A stretch of DNA of 64,000 nucleotides, taken from contig NZ_JBBYXJ010000001.1 in assembly GCF_039655775.1 (NCBI RefSeq), positions 1 to 64,000 on the forward strand, read 5' to 3'. The notes under the pieces were generated by a model. That model did no database searches. It was not told the origin of the DNA and saw only the letters and a list, made by a program, of their open reading frames with translations. Source of the stretch: Iodidimonas sp. SYSU 1G8. Its GTDB lineage: Bacteria > Pseudomonadota > Alphaproteobacteria > SMXS01. Shown one piece after another: positions 22,743-44,026 of this stretch. Made by a program: the position numbers and the translations under genes. Each line of letters opens with the position of its first letter. The stretch's first letter is position 1.

Positions 22743-23777
22743 TTAATCTGAAGCGTTCCAGTCTATTCCCGACATCAGGCCCGATTCTACAAGCGACCCT
22801 GATGTCAAATATTGGCGCGAGGCCTCGTAAGCCGCCGACAGGTTCGGTTCGATCTCAAGACGTTCCAGATATAAGCGGTACTCCGCCGACCCCGCATAGT
22901 GGTTATTCAACACCTTTGCCCTGACGGCCCGTTCGTGAAAATCTCCGAGAAGCTTGAAATGCGCCAGGCATCCGGTTGGAGTGCCGAAATTCAGCGTGAA
23001 CGGATAGAGTGCATGGGAATAGATCTGCACCACGTCCGCATCCCAGCGTGCCAGCGGGGTCTTGGCGATGTCGGACCGAAACCCCTTTGCCGGTGTGCTG
23101 AACAGCCTTTGGCGCGGCCCGCCTTCGTGATGGACGATACGCGGCTGCACCCACCGCGCGGTCTCGGGTGCCGCGACGCTGTAACCGTCGCCATCATATA
23201 GCGGGCACAGATCGAACAGCCTGTCCGATGGCGCCGGGACCAGGTCACGAATAGCGCCGTCGCCATACATGTCGAGCATCATGCAGGGAAGCGATCGTCG
23301 TCCGGCGTGCTCCAGATGGCGAATGAGCCGGTCGAGACCATGATTTTCACAGCCATCATAGACCAGTTGCTCGTCCGCATCGGCATAGAGAACCCATTGT
23401 CCAGGCAACAGCCTTTGGATCAGGGCGTTCGCCCAAAGAACGCCGAACCGCGAATCCTTGAAGCTGGCATCGGTGGCGTAGAGATCGCTGTCGTGCTGAT
23501 CAAGTATCAGGTCGCGGGTATGGTCGATCGACCCGTTATCGAGAAAAATGAAGCGGCTGATTCCAAGCTGGCGGTAGTGCCTGAGGAAATCAGGTAGGCG
23601 TAGCGCCTCGTCGCGGACGACGCAGATGCATGATATGCCTTGTGACGGCGCATGGCTATTCGCTCTGACTTGTCGGATCAGCGGCAAGGCGCGCTGGCTA
23701 TGCAGCCGGACCTTTGCGGCCAGCAGCCTGCCCGCCGGCGCTGACCGCTTCAGCTTGTCGATGAATGAGGTTGGCAT
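22743..23777 (-). CDS. Glycosyltransferase family 2-like protein
   Basis: The 344-residue protein lacks a transmembrane region. The GT core starts at about residue 48 (ISCICVVRDEALRLPDFLRHY) and carries the metal-binding motif DADEQLVYDG (about 152-161), the DxD region of GT-A enzymes. Downstream are AHFKLLGDF and a basic C-terminal region. It resembles GT2/GT92-type enzymes that take a core 'VRDE...LRHYR.LG' form and often add sugars to polysaccharide. No polysaccharide genes lie next to it. Confidence 0.8.
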   Translation of the reverse strand: MPTSFIDKLKRSAPAGRLLAAKVRLHSQRALPLIRQVRANSHAPSQGISCICVVRDEALRLPDFLRHYRQLGISRFIFLDNGSIDHTRDLILDQHDSDLYATDASFKDSRFGVLWANALIQRLLPGQWVLYADADEQLVYDGCENHGLDRLIRHLEHAGRRSLPCMMLDMYGDGAIRDLVPAPSDRLFDLCPLYDGDGYSVAAPETARWVQPRIVHHEGGPRQRLFSTPAKGFRSDIAKTPLARWDADVVQIYSHALYPFTLNFGTPTGCLAHFKLLGDFHERAVRAKVLNNHYAGSAEYRLYLERLEIEPNLSAAYEASRQYLTSGSLVESGLMSGIDWNASD

Positions 23778-29604: not shown

Positions 29605-31818
29605 TCAGTGGAGTGTCGGGTCGAGGACGGTACGCACCTTGGCGGCAAGAGCCTGAAGTGTATAGGGCTTTGACAACAGTTCGACATCCGTCTCGAGCCG
29701 CGAGCGCATGACGAGGTCGTCGCCGATATAGCCCGAGGTGAACAGTACCTTGCCCTTGGGGAAGATTTCCAGAAAGCGGTCGGCCACATCCGGGCCTGTC
29801 ATGCCACCGGGCAGGACGACGTCCGAGATCAACAGGTCGATCTTCTCGGCCTCATTGGCGACCTGCATGGCCTGAGGGCCGTTTTCGGCGGAAACCACCG
29901 CGTATCCGAGGCGCTTCAGCGCATTGACGATGAACTGCCGGACATCCGGATCGTCCTCGACGACCATGATCTTATCGCTGCCTTCCTGGATTTCTCTCAA
30001 ATCACTCATGATTTCCTCCGAATTTCCCTGCTGAATCTCGGCGCGGGGCAGATACAGCGTCACCGTTGTGCCCTTGCCGGGTTCACTCTCAATATCAACG
30101 TTGCCTTTGGATTGGGTGACGAACCCGTACACCATGCTGAGGCCGAGGCCGGAGCCCGTCGCCCCTGGGCTCTCGCCCTTTTTGGTGGTGAAGAAGGGCT
30201 CGAATGCTTTCTCTAGAATCTCCTGGCTCATGCCAGTGCCGGTATCCCGGATGACAATCGCGACGATGTCTTCGCCGCGCCGTTGCCTGCCTTGTCCGCG
30301 GCGGGGATGCGCCTGGGTGGTGATGGTAAGCGTCCCGCCCTCCCGCATGGCGTCGCGAGCATTGAGCGCCAGGTTCAGGATCGCATTCTCAAGTTGTCCT
30401 GGATCGACGGTCGCACGCACCGACTCCGCGTCGAATTCTGTCCGGATGGCGATGGTCTCCGGGAAGGTCCGCTCCAACATGCCAGTCAGGTCACCGAGCA
30501 AACGGTTGACATCAGTCGTCCGTGGATGAAGCGCCTGCTGCCGCGAGAAGGCCAGCAGGCGCTGGGTCAGCTCCGCGCCTCGTTCCGCTGCCCGCGCCGC
30601 CGATTCGGCAAAAGCCTTCAGTTCAGTGTTGGCCGAAACCTGATCGGCGATCAGGTCGACATTGCCCAGGATGGTCGTCAGCAGGTTATTGAAGTCGTGG
30701 GCAACGCCGCCGGTAAGGCGGCCTACGGCCTCAAGGCGCTGCGCGCGGTCCAGCCGTTGTTCGATCTCGACCTGCCGTTTCAGATTGCGCTCCAGGGCAT
30801 GTTCAGCGGCGACGCGCGCGGAGACGTCCAGCGCCACGCCGACAATGCCGGTGATCTTGCCGTCGGGCCCATGGCGGGGGCTGATATGGGCCTCAAAGGA
30901 TACCGAGGGGCTGCATTGCCATTCGAAGCGCGCGGCCTTTCCGACGAGGACCCGTGCGAGGTAGCGCCGGATTTCGGGGACGTCGCGGAACAGATCGTAC
31001 ATCGATGTTCCCGGCGCGGGACGCACGATGTTCGCGCCTTCCTCGACCAGTTGCTTGATCCGGTCAAACCCGCGTCCGCAGACAAGGCTGATCTCCCCCG
31101 AAGCATCCGCGGTCCATAGCAGAATCGGCGCGTTCTCGACAATGTTGGTGAGCAGGGAATTGCTGAACTTGAGTTGCCGTTCCTTTTCACGGCTGTGGCT
31201 CATGTCGGCGAACGAGCCGATGATGGCCGTGGCGGCGCCGGACGAGTCATGGGTCAGCGAGGCGGACAGGTCTACTTCCCTGACCTGGCCATCGGCGCGG
31301 CGCGCGATTACCTCGCCCCGCCAACTGCCTTGCTCGCGGATCGCCGCGAAGATTTCTTCAGCCTTGCCGGGATCGCTGAAGAAATCGTGCGCGTGGTGAC
31401 CGACGACGTCCTTGGTGGTGCGGGCGCCGACCAGCTTGATGAAGGAGCCGTTGGCATACTGCACTTTGCCGTCGAGGCCGGCGATCGCGACACCACTGAG
31501 GGAACTCGACAGCGCGGTTTCCTGTATACTGCGCTGTTGACGGTACTGGGCGCACAATAGGATGGCCAGGAGCATGGGAACGCTGCTGAGCGTCAGCAGG
31601 AGTTGGCTGGTCGCAAGGTTTCCAAAACTGACGCTGGCTGCGTCGATGATGCCCGCCTGCATGCTGGCGGCGATCGCAATGAGAACCACTGACGCCGTGC
31701 CCAGCAGAATGCGAAGGCCGCGGATCGTAATCAGTACGTAGAGTGAAACGCAGGCTGCGGCTCCCCATATAACCGCCCCTGCGGCATTGATGCCGCCTAA
31801 ATTTGCCCCATCCAACAT
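29605..31818 (-). CDS. Hybrid sensor histidine kinase with PAS domains and receiver (type 2)
   Basis: The 737-residue protein has at least three hydrophobic segments at the N-terminus (about 10-31, 36-58 and 70-90). A PAS domain (about 98-215) and a second PAS-like domain (about 220-340) follow. The HisKA box is VAHDFNN (H374), the HATPase core has NLALNARDAM and GSGLGLSMV, and the receiver has DLLISD (D666). It is closely similar in order to the kinase at 24633-27185, from which it differs in PAS number and membrane region. No separate response regulator is nearby. The AT-rich gap upstream (31819-31987) probably holds its promoter. Confidence 0.88.
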   Translation of the reverse strand: MLDGANLGGINAAGAVIWGAAACVSLYVLITIRGLRILLGTASVVLIAIAASMQAGIIDAASVSFGNLATSQLLLTLSSVPMLLAILLCAQYRQQRSIQETALSSSLSGVAIAGLDGKVQYANGSFIKLVGARTTKDVVGHHAHDFFSDPGKAEEIFAAIREQGSWRGEVIARRADGQVREVDLSASLTHDSSGAATAIIGSFADMSHSREKERQLKFSNSLLTNIVENAPILLWTADASGEISLVCGRGFDRIKQLVEEGANIVRPAPGTSMYDLFRDVPEIRRYLARVLVGKAARFEWQCSPSVSFEAHISPRHGPDGKITGIVGVALDVSARVAAEHALERNLKRQVEIEQRLDRAQRLEAVGRLTGGVAHDFNNLLTTILGNVDLIADQVSANTELKAFAESAARAAERGAELTQRLLAFSRQQALHPRTTDVNRLLGDLTGMLERTFPETIAIRTEFDAESVRATVDPGQLENAILNLALNARDAMREGGTLTITTQAHPRRGQGRQRRGEDIVAIVIRDTGTGMSQEILEKAFEPFFTTKKGESPGATGSGLGLSMVYGFVTQSKGNVDIESEPGKGTTVTLYLPRAEIQQGNSEEIMSDLREIQEGSDKIMVVEDDPDVRQFIVNALKRLGYAVVSAENGPQAMQVANEAEKIDLLISDVVLPGGMTGPDVADRFLEIFPKGKVLFTSGYIGDDLVMRSRLETDVELLSKPYTLQALAAKVRTVLDPTLH

Positions 31819-31987: not shown

Positions 31988-33829
31988 TCAGCCGTTACGT
32001 ATCCGTTGGGCGTCTGTGCGCAACGTGGCGGTGATCCGTCGGACAAGATCGGCGGGCGCGGGTTCATGCGCCCGACACTCGATCAATTCGCCGGACAGTC
32101 GGCGCATCAGCTGGATCACCGTATCGTTCCAAGGCCCCGTTTCCTGAACGATCACCAACGACATACGATCGGCTGGGGCGCCGTGCTGAAGGATGTCGTC
32201 GGCCGTCAAAAACACCAGAACGCCTTTACACATGCGATTGGAAAGGGCTCGAGCCATGCGCTCTGGAGCGGACAAATCGCCATTCTCGACCACGACGCCA
32301 TCGAGCGTCATGGTCTGTCCGTCGACAACGGCAAGTCCGTCGAGGTTTTGGCTTCGGAAGGCCTCGCGACATGTCTCGGCCAGTGTCACACCCTTCGCCG
32401 CGTCGGTCACGACGACGGCGATTGGTATCCGGCCCAGCCCTGGGCCGAGAATCAGCGTTCCCAGCGCGACTTCGTCGAAGCCTGAGGCGCAATGGACATC
32501 CAGGCCGGGATTCAGGTTTATTTCAATGATCGCTCCCGGCAGCTCGCGCCACGAGCGCGCCACATCCGAAGTCATGTAGTCGATACCGATGGCGTGAGCC
32601 GCCACGTTGCGCGCGATGCATTCGGCCATGGCCTTCACATCGGGGTGGACTGCCTTGAAGACATCATCAGGTTCGCCGCCTGTGCTGATGTTCGCGTTGC
32701 TCCTCAGCCATATGCGTTGCCCTTTTGGCAGCACAGTCTGGAGATCAACCTCCTGCCGAACAAGCTGACGCACGAGCGTGTCATCGATCCTGACCTGTCT
32801 CAGGTAGCGAGCACTTGCCGGATTCTTTCTGCGTGTGGCATTCAGCTCGGCAATCAGGTTTTGAATGGTATTCTTGCCGTCTCCCAGGACGGAGGCGGGC
32901 CTGCGCCTCGCGGCCGCTACCAGCGTGCCGCCCACCACCAGAAGCCGGTGATCGTCGCCCTCGACCATTCGTTCGACGAGTACGGGTTGAGACGTGAAGA
33001 CGCGGGCTTCGTCGAATGCGCGCCGAATATCTTCCGGCGCCTGTACACCGACCGTCACTCCTTTTCCCGTACCGCGATCGGCAGGCTTTATCACCACCTC
33101 CCCGCCCAGAGTCGCCGCGTGAGCGACGGCCTCATCCGCCGTCGCGGCTGGGAGGTGGACGCTGGCCGGGAAGCCCATCCGTTTGATGAACGCGGCCGAT
33201 ATCACTTTGTACCGCGCGACGTCACTGGCCTGGGCGCTGTCCAGATCTGACTGCGACTGGAAAAAGACACGAGAGGCATGGCCCCAGCCGAACTGCCAGA
33301 AACGCTCTTCCTTGATGGCTCTCGCGACAGGAATGTTCTGGGCATTCGCCGCGAGGATCAGAATGCGGGCCATCATGTCCGGATGCGACCTTTGACACCG
33401 TACCGATAATTGCCGCAGGGCTTCGATTGCGTGGTCGTTCCTTGCCGGGCGGCCGGCAGCGATGTCCTGAATGATCGAGAGGCCCATCAGCAGAGTCTGT
33501 TCGGCGACACCGGCATCGACATATCCCGTCCAGATGACAAAACGATTGCCTTCCGCGGTCCGCGCACCCGCGTTCTGGATCAGCGCGCCGTTGGCGTTGA
33601 GAAAGCCCCTGGTCCATTGTGCCGCCAGTTGAATGACCTGAACGGGCGTGGAAGCGGCAGGGTTCGGCGAGGGTGGAAGCCAAGTCGGGTAAGCCACTTG
33701 CAGAGCGGCGGCAACGTCGCCGTTTAGGGATAAAACTTCGTCGCTCGATAATTCGATCTCCCAGACTACAACGGCGTGATTGGCGAAGTGGTTAGGGCCA
33801 CTGAATACTTTCCTGCGCGTGCGCCGCAT
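31988..33829 (-). CDS. Truncated cyanophycin-synthetase-like ATP-grasp protein
   Basis: The 613-residue protein aligns with the first two-thirds of CphA. The N-terminal domain (about 1-180) contains the CphA-like RFWQFGWGHASR. The ATP-grasp (about 205-450) has VIKPADRGTGKG (K248), SVLGDGKNT, YLRQV, RSNANISTGGEPDDV, IGIDYMT and EINLNPGLDVH, all conserved in CphA. The following 160 residues resemble the start of the Mur-ligase domain (GLGRIPIAVVVTDAAKG) but the expected TGTNGKTT P-loop is degenerate and the rest of that domain is missing. It is unlikely to make cyanophycin alone; it may ligate an amino acid to an acid. No cyanophycinase is near. Confidence 0.8.
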   Translation of the reverse strand: MRRTRRKVFSGPNHFANHAVVVWEIELSSDEVLSLNGDVAAALQVAYPTWLPPSPNPAASTPVQVIQLAAQWTRGFLNANGALIQNAGARTAEGNRFVIWTGYVDAGVAEQTLLMGLSIIQDIAAGRPARNDHAIEALRQLSVRCQRSHPDMMARILILAANAQNIPVARAIKEERFWQFGWGHASRVFFQSQSDLDSAQASDVARYKVISAAFIKRMGFPASVHLPAATADEAVAHAATLGGEVVIKPADRGTGKGVTVGVQAPEDIRRAFDEARVFTSQPVLVERMVEGDDHRLLVVGGTLVAAARRRPASVLGDGKNTIQNLIAELNATRRKNPASARYLRQVRIDDTLVRQLVRQEVDLQTVLPKGQRIWLRSNANISTGGEPDDVFKAVHPDVKAMAECIARNVAAHAIGIDYMTSDVARSWRELPGAIIEINLNPGLDVHCASGFDEVALGTLILGPGLGRIPIAVVVTDAAKGVTLAETCREAFRSQNLDGLAVVDGQTMTLDGVVVENGDLSAPERMARALSNRMCKGVLVFLTADDILQHGAPADRMSLVIVQETGPWNDTVIQLMRRLSGELIECRAHEPAPADLVRRITATLRTDAQRIRNG

Positions 33830-34007: not shown

Positions 34008-35459
34008 GTGGGGCAGGTGGCACTGGGAGAGGAACTGCTGAAAGCAGGGCTGATCGAGGCAGAGGACGTCCGGCGCGCGCTCGATCACCAGAAAGTCCAT
34101 GGCTTGCCGCTGGGAGAATGTCTGCTCGAGATCGGCGCGATCAGCGCCGCCCAACTCGACGGGTTCTTCAACTATGCATTGCCGCCCCTGTCGCGGATCG
34201 AGGACACCGGGCTCAACCGCTTCTTCCTGCTCGATCTCATGCTGAAGATCATGTTCTCGTATGGTCTGGAGACGAAGCGGGCGATTGCCGACGAGATCAA
34301 GCTGCCACTCGGTATCGTCGACAAGTTGATGGATCTGGCCTACGAGCGGCGTCTGGTCGAATCCCTCGGCGCGACCGACCAGTCCCGGCTGGTGGCGGAA
34401 ATCCGCTACGGACTGAGCGACCAGGGGCGCCAGTCCGCGACCCGTGCCCTCGAAATTTCCCAGTACGCTGGACCAGCGCCCGTTACCCTGGAACAGTTCT
34501 CCGCGCAGGTGGGCCGGCAGCGGATCGTCAATGACAGGGTCGACAGCGAGAGGTTGCGCCGGTCGCTTGCCCGGCTCACCCTCTCTCCCGATCTGCTCGA
34601 TGGTCTCGGACCGGCTGTCAACTCGGGCCGTTCGATCCTGTTCTATGGTGAGCCGGGCAACGGAAAGACGTCCATCGCGGTCGCCATCGCCGACAGTTTC
34701 GAGCAGTACATCTACGTCCCCTATGCGCTGACGGTCGGCGGGCAGGTCATCAATATCTATGATCCGGCCGTGCATACGCTCGTCGGCGCGAGCCACGACG
34801 CCGAACCGCACAAGGAAGCGCGGATTTCCCTGCTCAAGACCGCGGACGATCCCCGCTGGCTCCGCTGCCACCGGCCCATCGCGATTGCGGGCGGCGAGCT
34901 GACCCTGAGCATGCTCGACATCAACTACAATGACAGTCTGCGCTACAGCGAGGCGCCCTTGCAGCTCAAGGCCGTCAGCGGCGTCTTCCTGATCGACGAC
35001 CTCGGACGCCAGGAAGCGCGGGTCGAGGACATTCTGAACCGGTGGGTCTTTCCGCTGGAACGCGGCATCGACTTTCTCACCTTGCCAACGGGCAAGAAGT
35101 TCGCGGTGCCATTTGGCAGCCTGATCATCTTTTCGACCAACAAGCCGCCGTCGCAACTGGTCGACGACGCCATGCTCCGGCGCATTCCTTACAAGTTCTA
35201 CATCGGCGGCCCGTCACTCGATGAGTATACGGTCATCTTCCGGAATGCGTGCGCGGCCGCTGGCCTTGCGTTCTCCCAGGACCTGCTCGACGAACTGATC
35301 GAGAATTTCTATCCCGCCCACAATCTGCGCATCGCGCGCTTCCATCCCGCTTTCATGCTGCGCCACGTGGTCGCCAGTTGCCGGTACCACGGCAAACCGC
35401 CATCACTGGAGCGCGCTCTCCTCTTCGAGGCGGCCGAACATCTGGTGGTGCGGGATTAA
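34008..35459 (+). CDS. AAA+ ATPase with MshEN-like N-terminal domain
   Basis: The 483-residue protein has an N-terminal 'LGEELLKAGLIEAEDVRRAL ... LGECLLEIGAISAAQLDGFF' module like the GspE/MshE N-domain. A winged-helix-like section follows (about 70-150). The AAA core has Walker A GEPGNGKTS (214-222) and Walker B VSGVFLIDDLG. A C-terminal lid includes RFHPAFMLRHVV. Either GTG at 34008 or GTG at 34017 could start it; the latter has the better spaced site. It overlaps the convergent FMN enzyme by four bases (TTAA). The substrate or partner is unknown; the family is found in several phyla. Confidence 0.8.
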   Translation: MGQVALGEELLKAGLIEAEDVRRALDHQKVHGLPLGECLLEIGAISAAQLDGFFNYALPPLSRIEDTGLNRFFLLDLMLKIMFSYGLETKRAIADEIKLPLGIVDKLMDLAYERRLVESLGATDQSRLVAEIRYGLSDQGRQSATRALEISQYAGPAPVTLEQFSAQVGRQRIVNDRVDSERLRRSLARLTLSPDLLDGLGPAVNSGRSILFYGEPGNGKTSIAVAIADSFEQYIYVPYALTVGGQVINIYDPAVHTLVGASHDAEPHKEARISLLKTADDPRWLRCHRPIAIAGGELTLSMLDINYNDSLRYSEAPLQLKAVSGVFLIDDLGRQEARVEDILNRWVFPLERGIDFLTLPTGKKFAVPFGSLIIFSTNKPPSQLVDDAMLRRIPYKFYIGGPSLDEYTVIFRNACAAAGLAFSQDLLDELIENFYPAHNLRIARFHPAFMLRHVVASCRYHGKPPSLERALLFEAAEHLVVRD

Positions 35460-43753: not shown

Positions 43754-44026
43754 ATGAAGTTCTCGACCTTGATTGCGGCGGTGGCCCTCGTTGGCGGTTT
43801 GGCGGTCGCTGGTTGCGACTCGAATGACGGCCCGATGGAAGAAACCGGCGAAAAGATGGACAACGCAGCCGAAGAAACCAAGGACGCGATGCAGGACGCG
43901 CATGAGGATGCGGGTGATGCCGTCGAAGACGCCGGCGACCGTATCGAAGACGCGACGGACAACGCCGACCCGGCGACCGAAGCGGCAGGTGACCGCATTG
44001 AGGATCAGACCGACAAGGCTGACTAA
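43754..44026 (+). CDS. Small lipoprotein with apolipoprotein-like acidic repeats
   Basis: The 90-residue protein has a signal peptide with lipobox VAGC (Cys at residue 21). The mature part is acidic and Glu/Asp/Ala-rich, with repeats such as AGDAVEDAGDRIEDATDNAD, predicted helical and amphipathic. The sequence resembles small lipoproteins of the DUF3618/Apo-like helical type seen in sphingomonads. It has its own bidirectional terminator downstream. The function is unknown. Confidence 0.8.
   Translation: MKFSTLIAAVALVGGLAVAGCDSNDGPMEETGEKMDNAAEETKDAMQDAHEDAGDAVEDAGDRIEDATDNADPATEAAGDRIEDQTDKAD

Follow-up and report, generated by a model that had tools for sequence, protein, structure and literature searches.

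The gene at 31988..33829 (minus strand, stop codon included) of the window, the 64,000-nucleotide stretch of Iodidimonas sp. SYSU 1G8 DNA analyzed here, encodes a 613-residue ATP-grasp ligase of CphA2 architecture, as indicated by its open reading frame, NCBIfam and PDB matches and predicted fold. It is moderately probable that this protein is an active ADP-forming carboxylate-amine ligase with altered, non-cyanophycin substrates. By analogy with the G domain of cyanophycin synthetase, the ATP-grasp site would activate a carboxylate as an acyl phosphate, which an amine would then attack. The ligase would neither make nor repolymerize cyanophycin and would use another acid and amine; its product would probably be a small, peptide-like metabolite, formed by the ligase alone or together with the second truncated ligase of the genome. 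The analysis established that the catalytic residues are kept, the Mur site is lost, the protein is kin to CphA and cyanophycinase matches are absent. The undescribed conjugating activity proposed in the original prediction is our best guess.

Reading frame, domains and the lost Mur-type site

The frame is open, and its GC content by codon position (0.67/0.47/0.70) is coding-like. The best NCBIfam match is to cyanophycin synthetase (residues 88-563, 291.9 bits versus a cut-off of 877), and a second cyanophycin synthetase model scored 251.2 bits versus a curated cut-off of 850. NCBIfam and Pfam scans yielded no dedicated model for the family, the cyanophycin synthetase models being far below cut-off, and the ligase was unmatched in a PADLOC scan. 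The closest PDB sequences are also cyanophycin synthetases, a six-sequence profile matched 7lgn (3.8e-91) and 8fxh (2.7e-76), and the proposed derivation from CphA is borne out.

A frameshift or assembly error could in principle have removed the Mur half of the ligase, and no supporting point for this explanation was found. The match to the cyanophycin synthetase model at the locus is confined to positions 98-573, a search of the genome itself listed no other fragment close by, and the gap from the stop codon to the start of the next gene is 169 bp. The length is 587-640 residues in 18 of the 23 members of clade I (described below), including three syntenic relatives of the same layout. Such an artifact is therefore exceedingly improbable.

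The predicted fold of the ligase was obtained with a 34-sequence alignment (mean pLDDT 92.6, pTM 0.91), replacing a first model made from 6 sequences (pLDDT 70.8). The model aligned with CphA2 7ta5 over residues 1-592 (Z 28.7, rmsd 3.6, 562 aligned), with TeCphA1 7wae over residues 1-605 (Z 31.1, rmsd 4.8, 597 aligned) and with CphA2 8fxi (Z 25.7, rmsd 4.3, 576 aligned). Among the 50 Foldseek matches listed, 7ta5 had the highest TM-score on target (0.82). The same list includes PsnB, and an overlay with RimK 5zct gave Z 16.4 and rmsd 3.1 with 239 residues aligned, suggesting that the ligase could modify a protein or ribosomal peptide, in the fashion of RimK or graspetide synthetases, rather than a free small molecule. 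The substrate of CphA itself is a peptide C-terminus, which is consistent with this. The N domain and the C-terminal stump nevertheless resemble those of CphA and fall beyond the part of the model that RimK matches (147-468), and protein or peptide modification is considered quite unlikely, open reading frame calls having covered frames of 80-90 residues and longer.

The CphA-type N domain comprises residues 1-150 (approximate boundary; 33380..33829, minus strand). The domain is recognized in the model by its fold and has the GPN motif, but its description as well preserved does not hold: the Cx19HxxEH motif is absent, the Pfam CphA N-domain model gave no match to the ligase, and identity to the three syntenic relatives is only 22-25%. 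The equivalent description of the ATP-grasp (G) domain (residues ∼151-466; 32432..33379, minus strand) is accurate, as the catalytic residues K208, K248, R295, R309, D417, E436 and N438 are all kept.

The remainder of the protein (residues ∼467-613; 31991..32431, minus strand) is a Mur-ligase core remnant without a lid, identified by profile comparison and in the predicted model. Its P-loop is degenerate, TDAAKGVT (residues 475-482; 32384..32407, minus strand), and GTNGKTT aligns with T475-D-A-A-K-G-V481, in agreement with the replacement noted originally. Lys479 aligns with Lys499, the catalytic lysine of TeCphA1, which is so in no other of the 23 clade I members, and the Mur Mg ligands T500, T522 and E558 of TeCphA1 correspond to G480, G504 and F540. 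From residue 475 to the C-terminus there are 139 residues, within the 140 originally given. When the C-terminal 153 residues alone were compared with PDB sequences nothing was found (best E value, 0.61), and the Mur link emerged through profiles: the stump matched the CphA1 Mur core with a probability of 93% (P 3.4e-7, 98 columns), and two unrelated control profiles reached 0.1% and 0.5%, which supports its identity as a Mur-ligase remnant. With P-loop, Mg ligands and lid all gone, “dead” was an apt description. The second, Mur-type active site has been lost, and the core appears to survive in a structural role, as a stump like that of CphA2.

Kinship, substrate specificity and cyanophycin

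Phylogenetic analysis used the ATP-grasp part (57 rows and 286 columns, with columns 215, 267 and 458 excluded); CphA2 was represented by two sequences, and two fragments (the second gene of L063 and the fourth of L064) were kept out. The ligase groups with three syntenic members of its genus (97/82) and lies outside the full-length CphA1s, with which clustering had been named as a possible refutation. Together with its relatives it belongs to clade I, 23 truncated proteins (90/69) from the genus, Burkholderiales, Chlorobiaceae, Cycloclasticus and others, mostly metagenome-assembled genomes (MAGs). A second truncated group, clade II (19 rows; 90/94), the CphA2 pair (100/100) and the CphA1s are all placed apart from clade I. 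Approximately unbiased (AU) tests rejected neither the union of clades I and II (p-AU 0.063) nor that of clade I and CphA2 (p-AU 0.227), and separate losses of the Mur site among the truncated groups are thus no more than suggested.

The latter union would also suit a different function, in which the ligase is a noncyanobacterial CphA2 that uses its single ATP-grasp site to join beta-Asp-Arg dipeptides, or something close to them, into a polymer resembling cyanophycin. The domain layout is identical, P-loop, Mur Mg ligands and N-domain motif are all absent, and CphA2-type genes outside cyanobacteria have been published for Sideroxydans (PMC5178258) and Bacillus horikoshii (PMC5532821), in the parts of these papers available, as annotations rather than assays. 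Against this, the free tree places the CphA2 pair away from clade I, and further opposing points, from position 458 and gene content, are given below. The ligase is probably not a CphA2 in function, and we regard polymerization of this kind as unlikely, if still deserving consideration.

Residue roles in ATP, Mg and substrate binding were taken from the TeCphA1 structure paper (PMC9427784, available portion). The equivalents of TeCphA1 K220, K261, R309, D431, E450 and N452 are kept in all 23 clade I, all 19 clade II and all nine CphA1 rows; that of R323 is kept in 23/23, 18/19 and 9/9, respectively. Conservation of these residues is consistent with the preferred reading of an active carboxylate-amine ligase. 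Glu215 of TeCphA1, which holds the Arg side chain of the polymer, is kept in one of 23 clade I and one of 19 clade II rows; the ligase has Asp203 at this position, matching both CphA2 structures, which favors a CphA2-like function and was counted against altered substrates. His267 of CphA1, proposed to steady the acyl phosphate, is replaced by T254 in the ligase, and no His is found there in the 42 rows of clades I and II. The aspartate-pocket residues Asn394 and Ser396 of CphA1 are kept in the ligase as Asn380 and Ser382, and this too was counted against altered substrates.

A further difference concerns Arg458 of TeCphA1, which is described as near to or contacting the alpha-carboxylate of the incoming aspartate (PMC9427784, available portion). 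Its place is taken in the ligase, by residue alignment, by Asp444 (codon 32498..32500, minus strand). Arg is present at position 458 in 9/9 CphA1 rows, clade I has Asp in 19 rows, Arg in two and Gly and Ser in one each, and clade II has Gly in 14, Ser in three and Pro in two. The two CphA2s have Tyr and Phe, unlike the ligase, and this argues against a CphA2 function. The presence of Asp444 at the place of Arg458 is interpreted as a change in amine specificity; most tentatively, the incoming amine may lack an alpha-carboxylate or be positively charged.

Gene content is also relevant to the proposed polymerization of beta-Asp-Arg. Full CphA1 is absent from the genome, and the absence of cyanophycinase that had been noted originally extends beyond the window, with no match in the whole genome. 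Among the seven genomes of the genus, two of which are 78-84% complete, neither cyanophycinase TIGR02069 (control matched, 5/14) nor Peptidase_S51 PF03575 (control matched, 10/14) was found. With no full CphA1 and no cyanophycinase match, there is no known source of beta-Asp-Arg for the ligase. S51 genes lie beside all five GTNGKT-type CphA1 loci (from two lineages, and themselves the source of the search profile) and near none of the other 55 CphA-like loci, some of which end at contig ends and two of which (L036 and L063) keep a P-loop-like motif. Cyanophycinase was recognized in 658 of 1,614 CphA1 genomes (PMC10206079, available text), and the available part of PMC5178258 reports no cyanophycinase in genomes of betaproteobacteria, although in Sideroxydans genes for CphA1 and CphA2 lie next to each other and are presumed to serve cyanophycin synthesis. 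As known CphA carriers may lack the enzyme, its absence from the genus is weak evidence against a CphA2 function.

Distribution, neighborhood and arrays of relatives

The genome has two CphA-like genes, the ligase and C1:1569398-1571521, and the seven genomes of the genus contain two to eight each (E value, 1e-60 or better). At the same threshold, none of three genomes from two other genera of the family carries such a gene. In a class-wide sample of 289 genomes, with at most four candidates scored per genome, three had a match of the ligase kind (over 900 bits), all within this genus, and two others had weaker matches (312-322 bits) at a limit of 1e-90. A contig search with the single ligase protein found no relative, and the same search with an alignment instead found 28 loci. 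Five duplicates (L050, L052, L053, L067 and L069, which are contigs of L030, L031, L033, L034 and L035) and five CphA1 loci were excluded from genome follow-up; the other 18 loci were traced to 17 genomes with two to 13 CphA-like matches each (E value, 1e-30 or better), a count that takes in full-length CphA-like genes and one gene with an internal stop. Among 20 further stretches, L108, L114 and L116 were without a CphA-like open reading frame by longest-frame picking, which may miss short genes and favor wrong frames, and were uncounted. Of 129 plasmid records matched, none reached 80% query coverage.

Downstream of the ligase lies a PAS-histidine kinase-receiver protein (29605..31818, minus strand), which is also the neighbor in the three syntenic loci of the genus. 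The kinase is 72-76% identical to its three syntenic counterparts, versus 37-40% for the ligase, and an FMN dehydrogenase at the ligase locus shares 80% identity with the corresponding enzyme of one of these loci. Among the other three loci themselves, identity is 79-87% for the kinase and 57-59% for the ligase. By these comparisons the ligase gene is either fast-evolving or replaced in place. The low identity, together with values of only 22-28% for the N and C domains, would also be compatible with a decaying gene or a nonenzymatic CphA relic. The open frame and coding-like composition argue against decay, as do retention of the catalytic residues, an ATP-grasp domain 50-52% identical to the syntenic relatives and high predicted confidence along the entire fold, and we consider decay very unlikely.

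Two neighbors were considered as partners of the ligase, and the second was rejected. The kinase is adjacent in the ligase locus and in the three syntenic loci, but the genes around it are syntenic too. An intergenic scan was near chance (one promoter-like and three terminator-like sites versus 0.8 and 2.3 expected), and with the surrounding synteny this means that adjacency of the kinase is no independent evidence. The AAA ATPase (34008..35459, plus strand), whose N-terminus carries a c-di-GMP domain of MshE type (43.8 bits; cut-off, 38), is indeed divergent to the ligase, as originally noted, but is irrelevant as context. Its orthologs (72-80% identical) occur in five of six other genomes of the genus, with a second copy (42%) in the same genome. 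In the four other genomes of the genus with both genes, it is on a different contig from the close ligase ortholog, and other genes lie beside the ligase in the three syntenic loci. The ATPase also weakly matched IetA, an anti-phage ATPase. The gene at 22746-23777, 8 kb from the ligase, is weakly similar (27% identity) to the C-terminal domain of a relative in another genome of the set (G001; L033 7769-10624), a domain that looks glycosyltransferase-like by eye. Between positions 44000 and 54000 of the window, AT skew ranges from +0.19 to −0.22 among 2-kb steps.

Some relatives of the ligase occur in arrays, which was counted in favor of non-cyanophycin substrates. The second CphA-like gene of the genome encodes a 708-residue clade II protein (C1:1569398-1571521 of this genome, G000), and a methyltransferase gene on the same strand ends 9 bp upstream (the pair spanning C1:1569398-1572358, or L009 9399-12359). 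At five of 60 loci, this one included, a CphA-like gene is directly adjoined by a member of one methyltransferase family, which lies on the other strand at one of the five. Beyond the genus, Ramlibacter WS9 (L058) has three truncated ligases in a row; next come a 205-residue frame that had no Pfam match and two proteins of an ABC transporter kind. In a Comamonadaceae MAG (L065), a methyltransferase domain is fused to a clade I ligase, a clade II ligase comes next, and ahead of both is a frame with Mur ligase domains that the contig start truncates. In the array of a Cycloclasticus MAG (L068), three ligases are accompanied by an AMP-ligase, an FAD oxidoreductase, a PLP enzyme and two methyltransferases, as well as by two acetyltransferase-like genes, one of which had no Pfam match. 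L064 combines several ligases with glycosyltransferase and phosphodiesterase genes. No such array partner was found at other loci of relatives or at the ligase locus. In Paracoccus chinensis (L076 8167-13461), a 1,765-residue frame combines a CapA (PGA_cap) domain with matches to ATP-grasp around residues 250 and 940, and could possibly be a polymer or capsule synthetase.

It is conceivable, although on balance we stop short of calling it probable, that clades I and II together constitute a family, so far undescribed, of peptide or amide ligases that stand alone and act successively in multi-ligase pathways (clade I with at least one clade II and tailoring enzymes), leading to peptide-like natural products without ribosome, nonribosomal peptide synthetase (NRPS) or Mur ligase. 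The ligase would be the clade I member of such a pathway, with an amine specificity altered by the Arg-to-Asp switch at residue 444. Its gene is single and outside any array, array members are 23-34% identical to it, and array partners vary by lineage; these points were counted against the reading of the protein as an active ligase with non-cyanophycin substrates. “Cyanophycin synthetase” models match all 34 scanned members at an E value of 1e-10, 30 of them truncated, and genomes may therefore be counted as cyanophycin producers through genes of other function. Should the products of the family be other amides, the genomes that carry as many as 13 CphA-like genes, counting full-length ones, would represent an unread biosynthetic resource, and Asp444 is a specific residue to probe for specificity.

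Comparison with known systems

The layout of the ligase is already known from CphA2 (PMC9427784, available portion; structures 7ta5, 8fxh and 8fxi), and any suggestion of an undescribed architecture can be set aside. CphA2 of Gloeothece citriformis (7ta5) and Stanieria sp. (8fxh and 8fxi) likewise has an N domain, ATP-grasp domain and shortened Mur core, with a nearly whole-length fold match to the ligase. According to the sections available of PMC9427784 and PMC9262961, CphA2 lacks the Mur P-loop and lid (the former) and the Cx19HxxEH motif, which is not universal among CphA1 (the latter); all three are also absent from the ligase. CphA2 differs in being described as cyanobacterial and acting on beta-Asp-Arg (PMC10206079, available text), in having only 21-25% identity to the ligase in structure alignments and in carrying Tyr or Phe rather than Asp at TeCphA1 position 458. 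CphA1 resembles the ligase in fold over residues 1-605 and shares its ATP-grasp catalytic residues, but differs in its functional Mur-type site and in having Glu215, His267 and Arg458.

A close likeness by description is found in Bacillus horikoshii 20a, for which the available part of PMC5532821 reports three tandem CphA2-type CphA-like genes without arginine-adding residues. As in the ligase, aspartate-site residues are kept and arginine-site residues are absent; B. horikoshii differs in also carrying genes for cyanophycinase (elsewhere in its genome) and isoaspartyl dipeptidase. N-acetylglutaminylglutamine synthetase (TIGR03103) and GshF-type glutathione synthetase have a related ATP-grasp domain, and their matches involve that part only (residues 152-446 and 192-447, respectively), far under curated cut-offs (161.7 bits versus 569 for the former).

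A search of the open-access literature, from which subscription papers are mostly absent, found no paper on clades I and II, and the available part of PMC7564069 offered nothing relevant. The amidoligase survey of Iyer et al. (2009) may cover relatives. The truncated CphA-like proteins of Burkholderiales, Chlorobiaceae and others in these clades have the layout of the ligase, including loss of the Mur site, but differ in that there are often several per genome, some in tandem, and in that some frames carry extra methyltransferase, CapA or glycosyltransferase-like domains.
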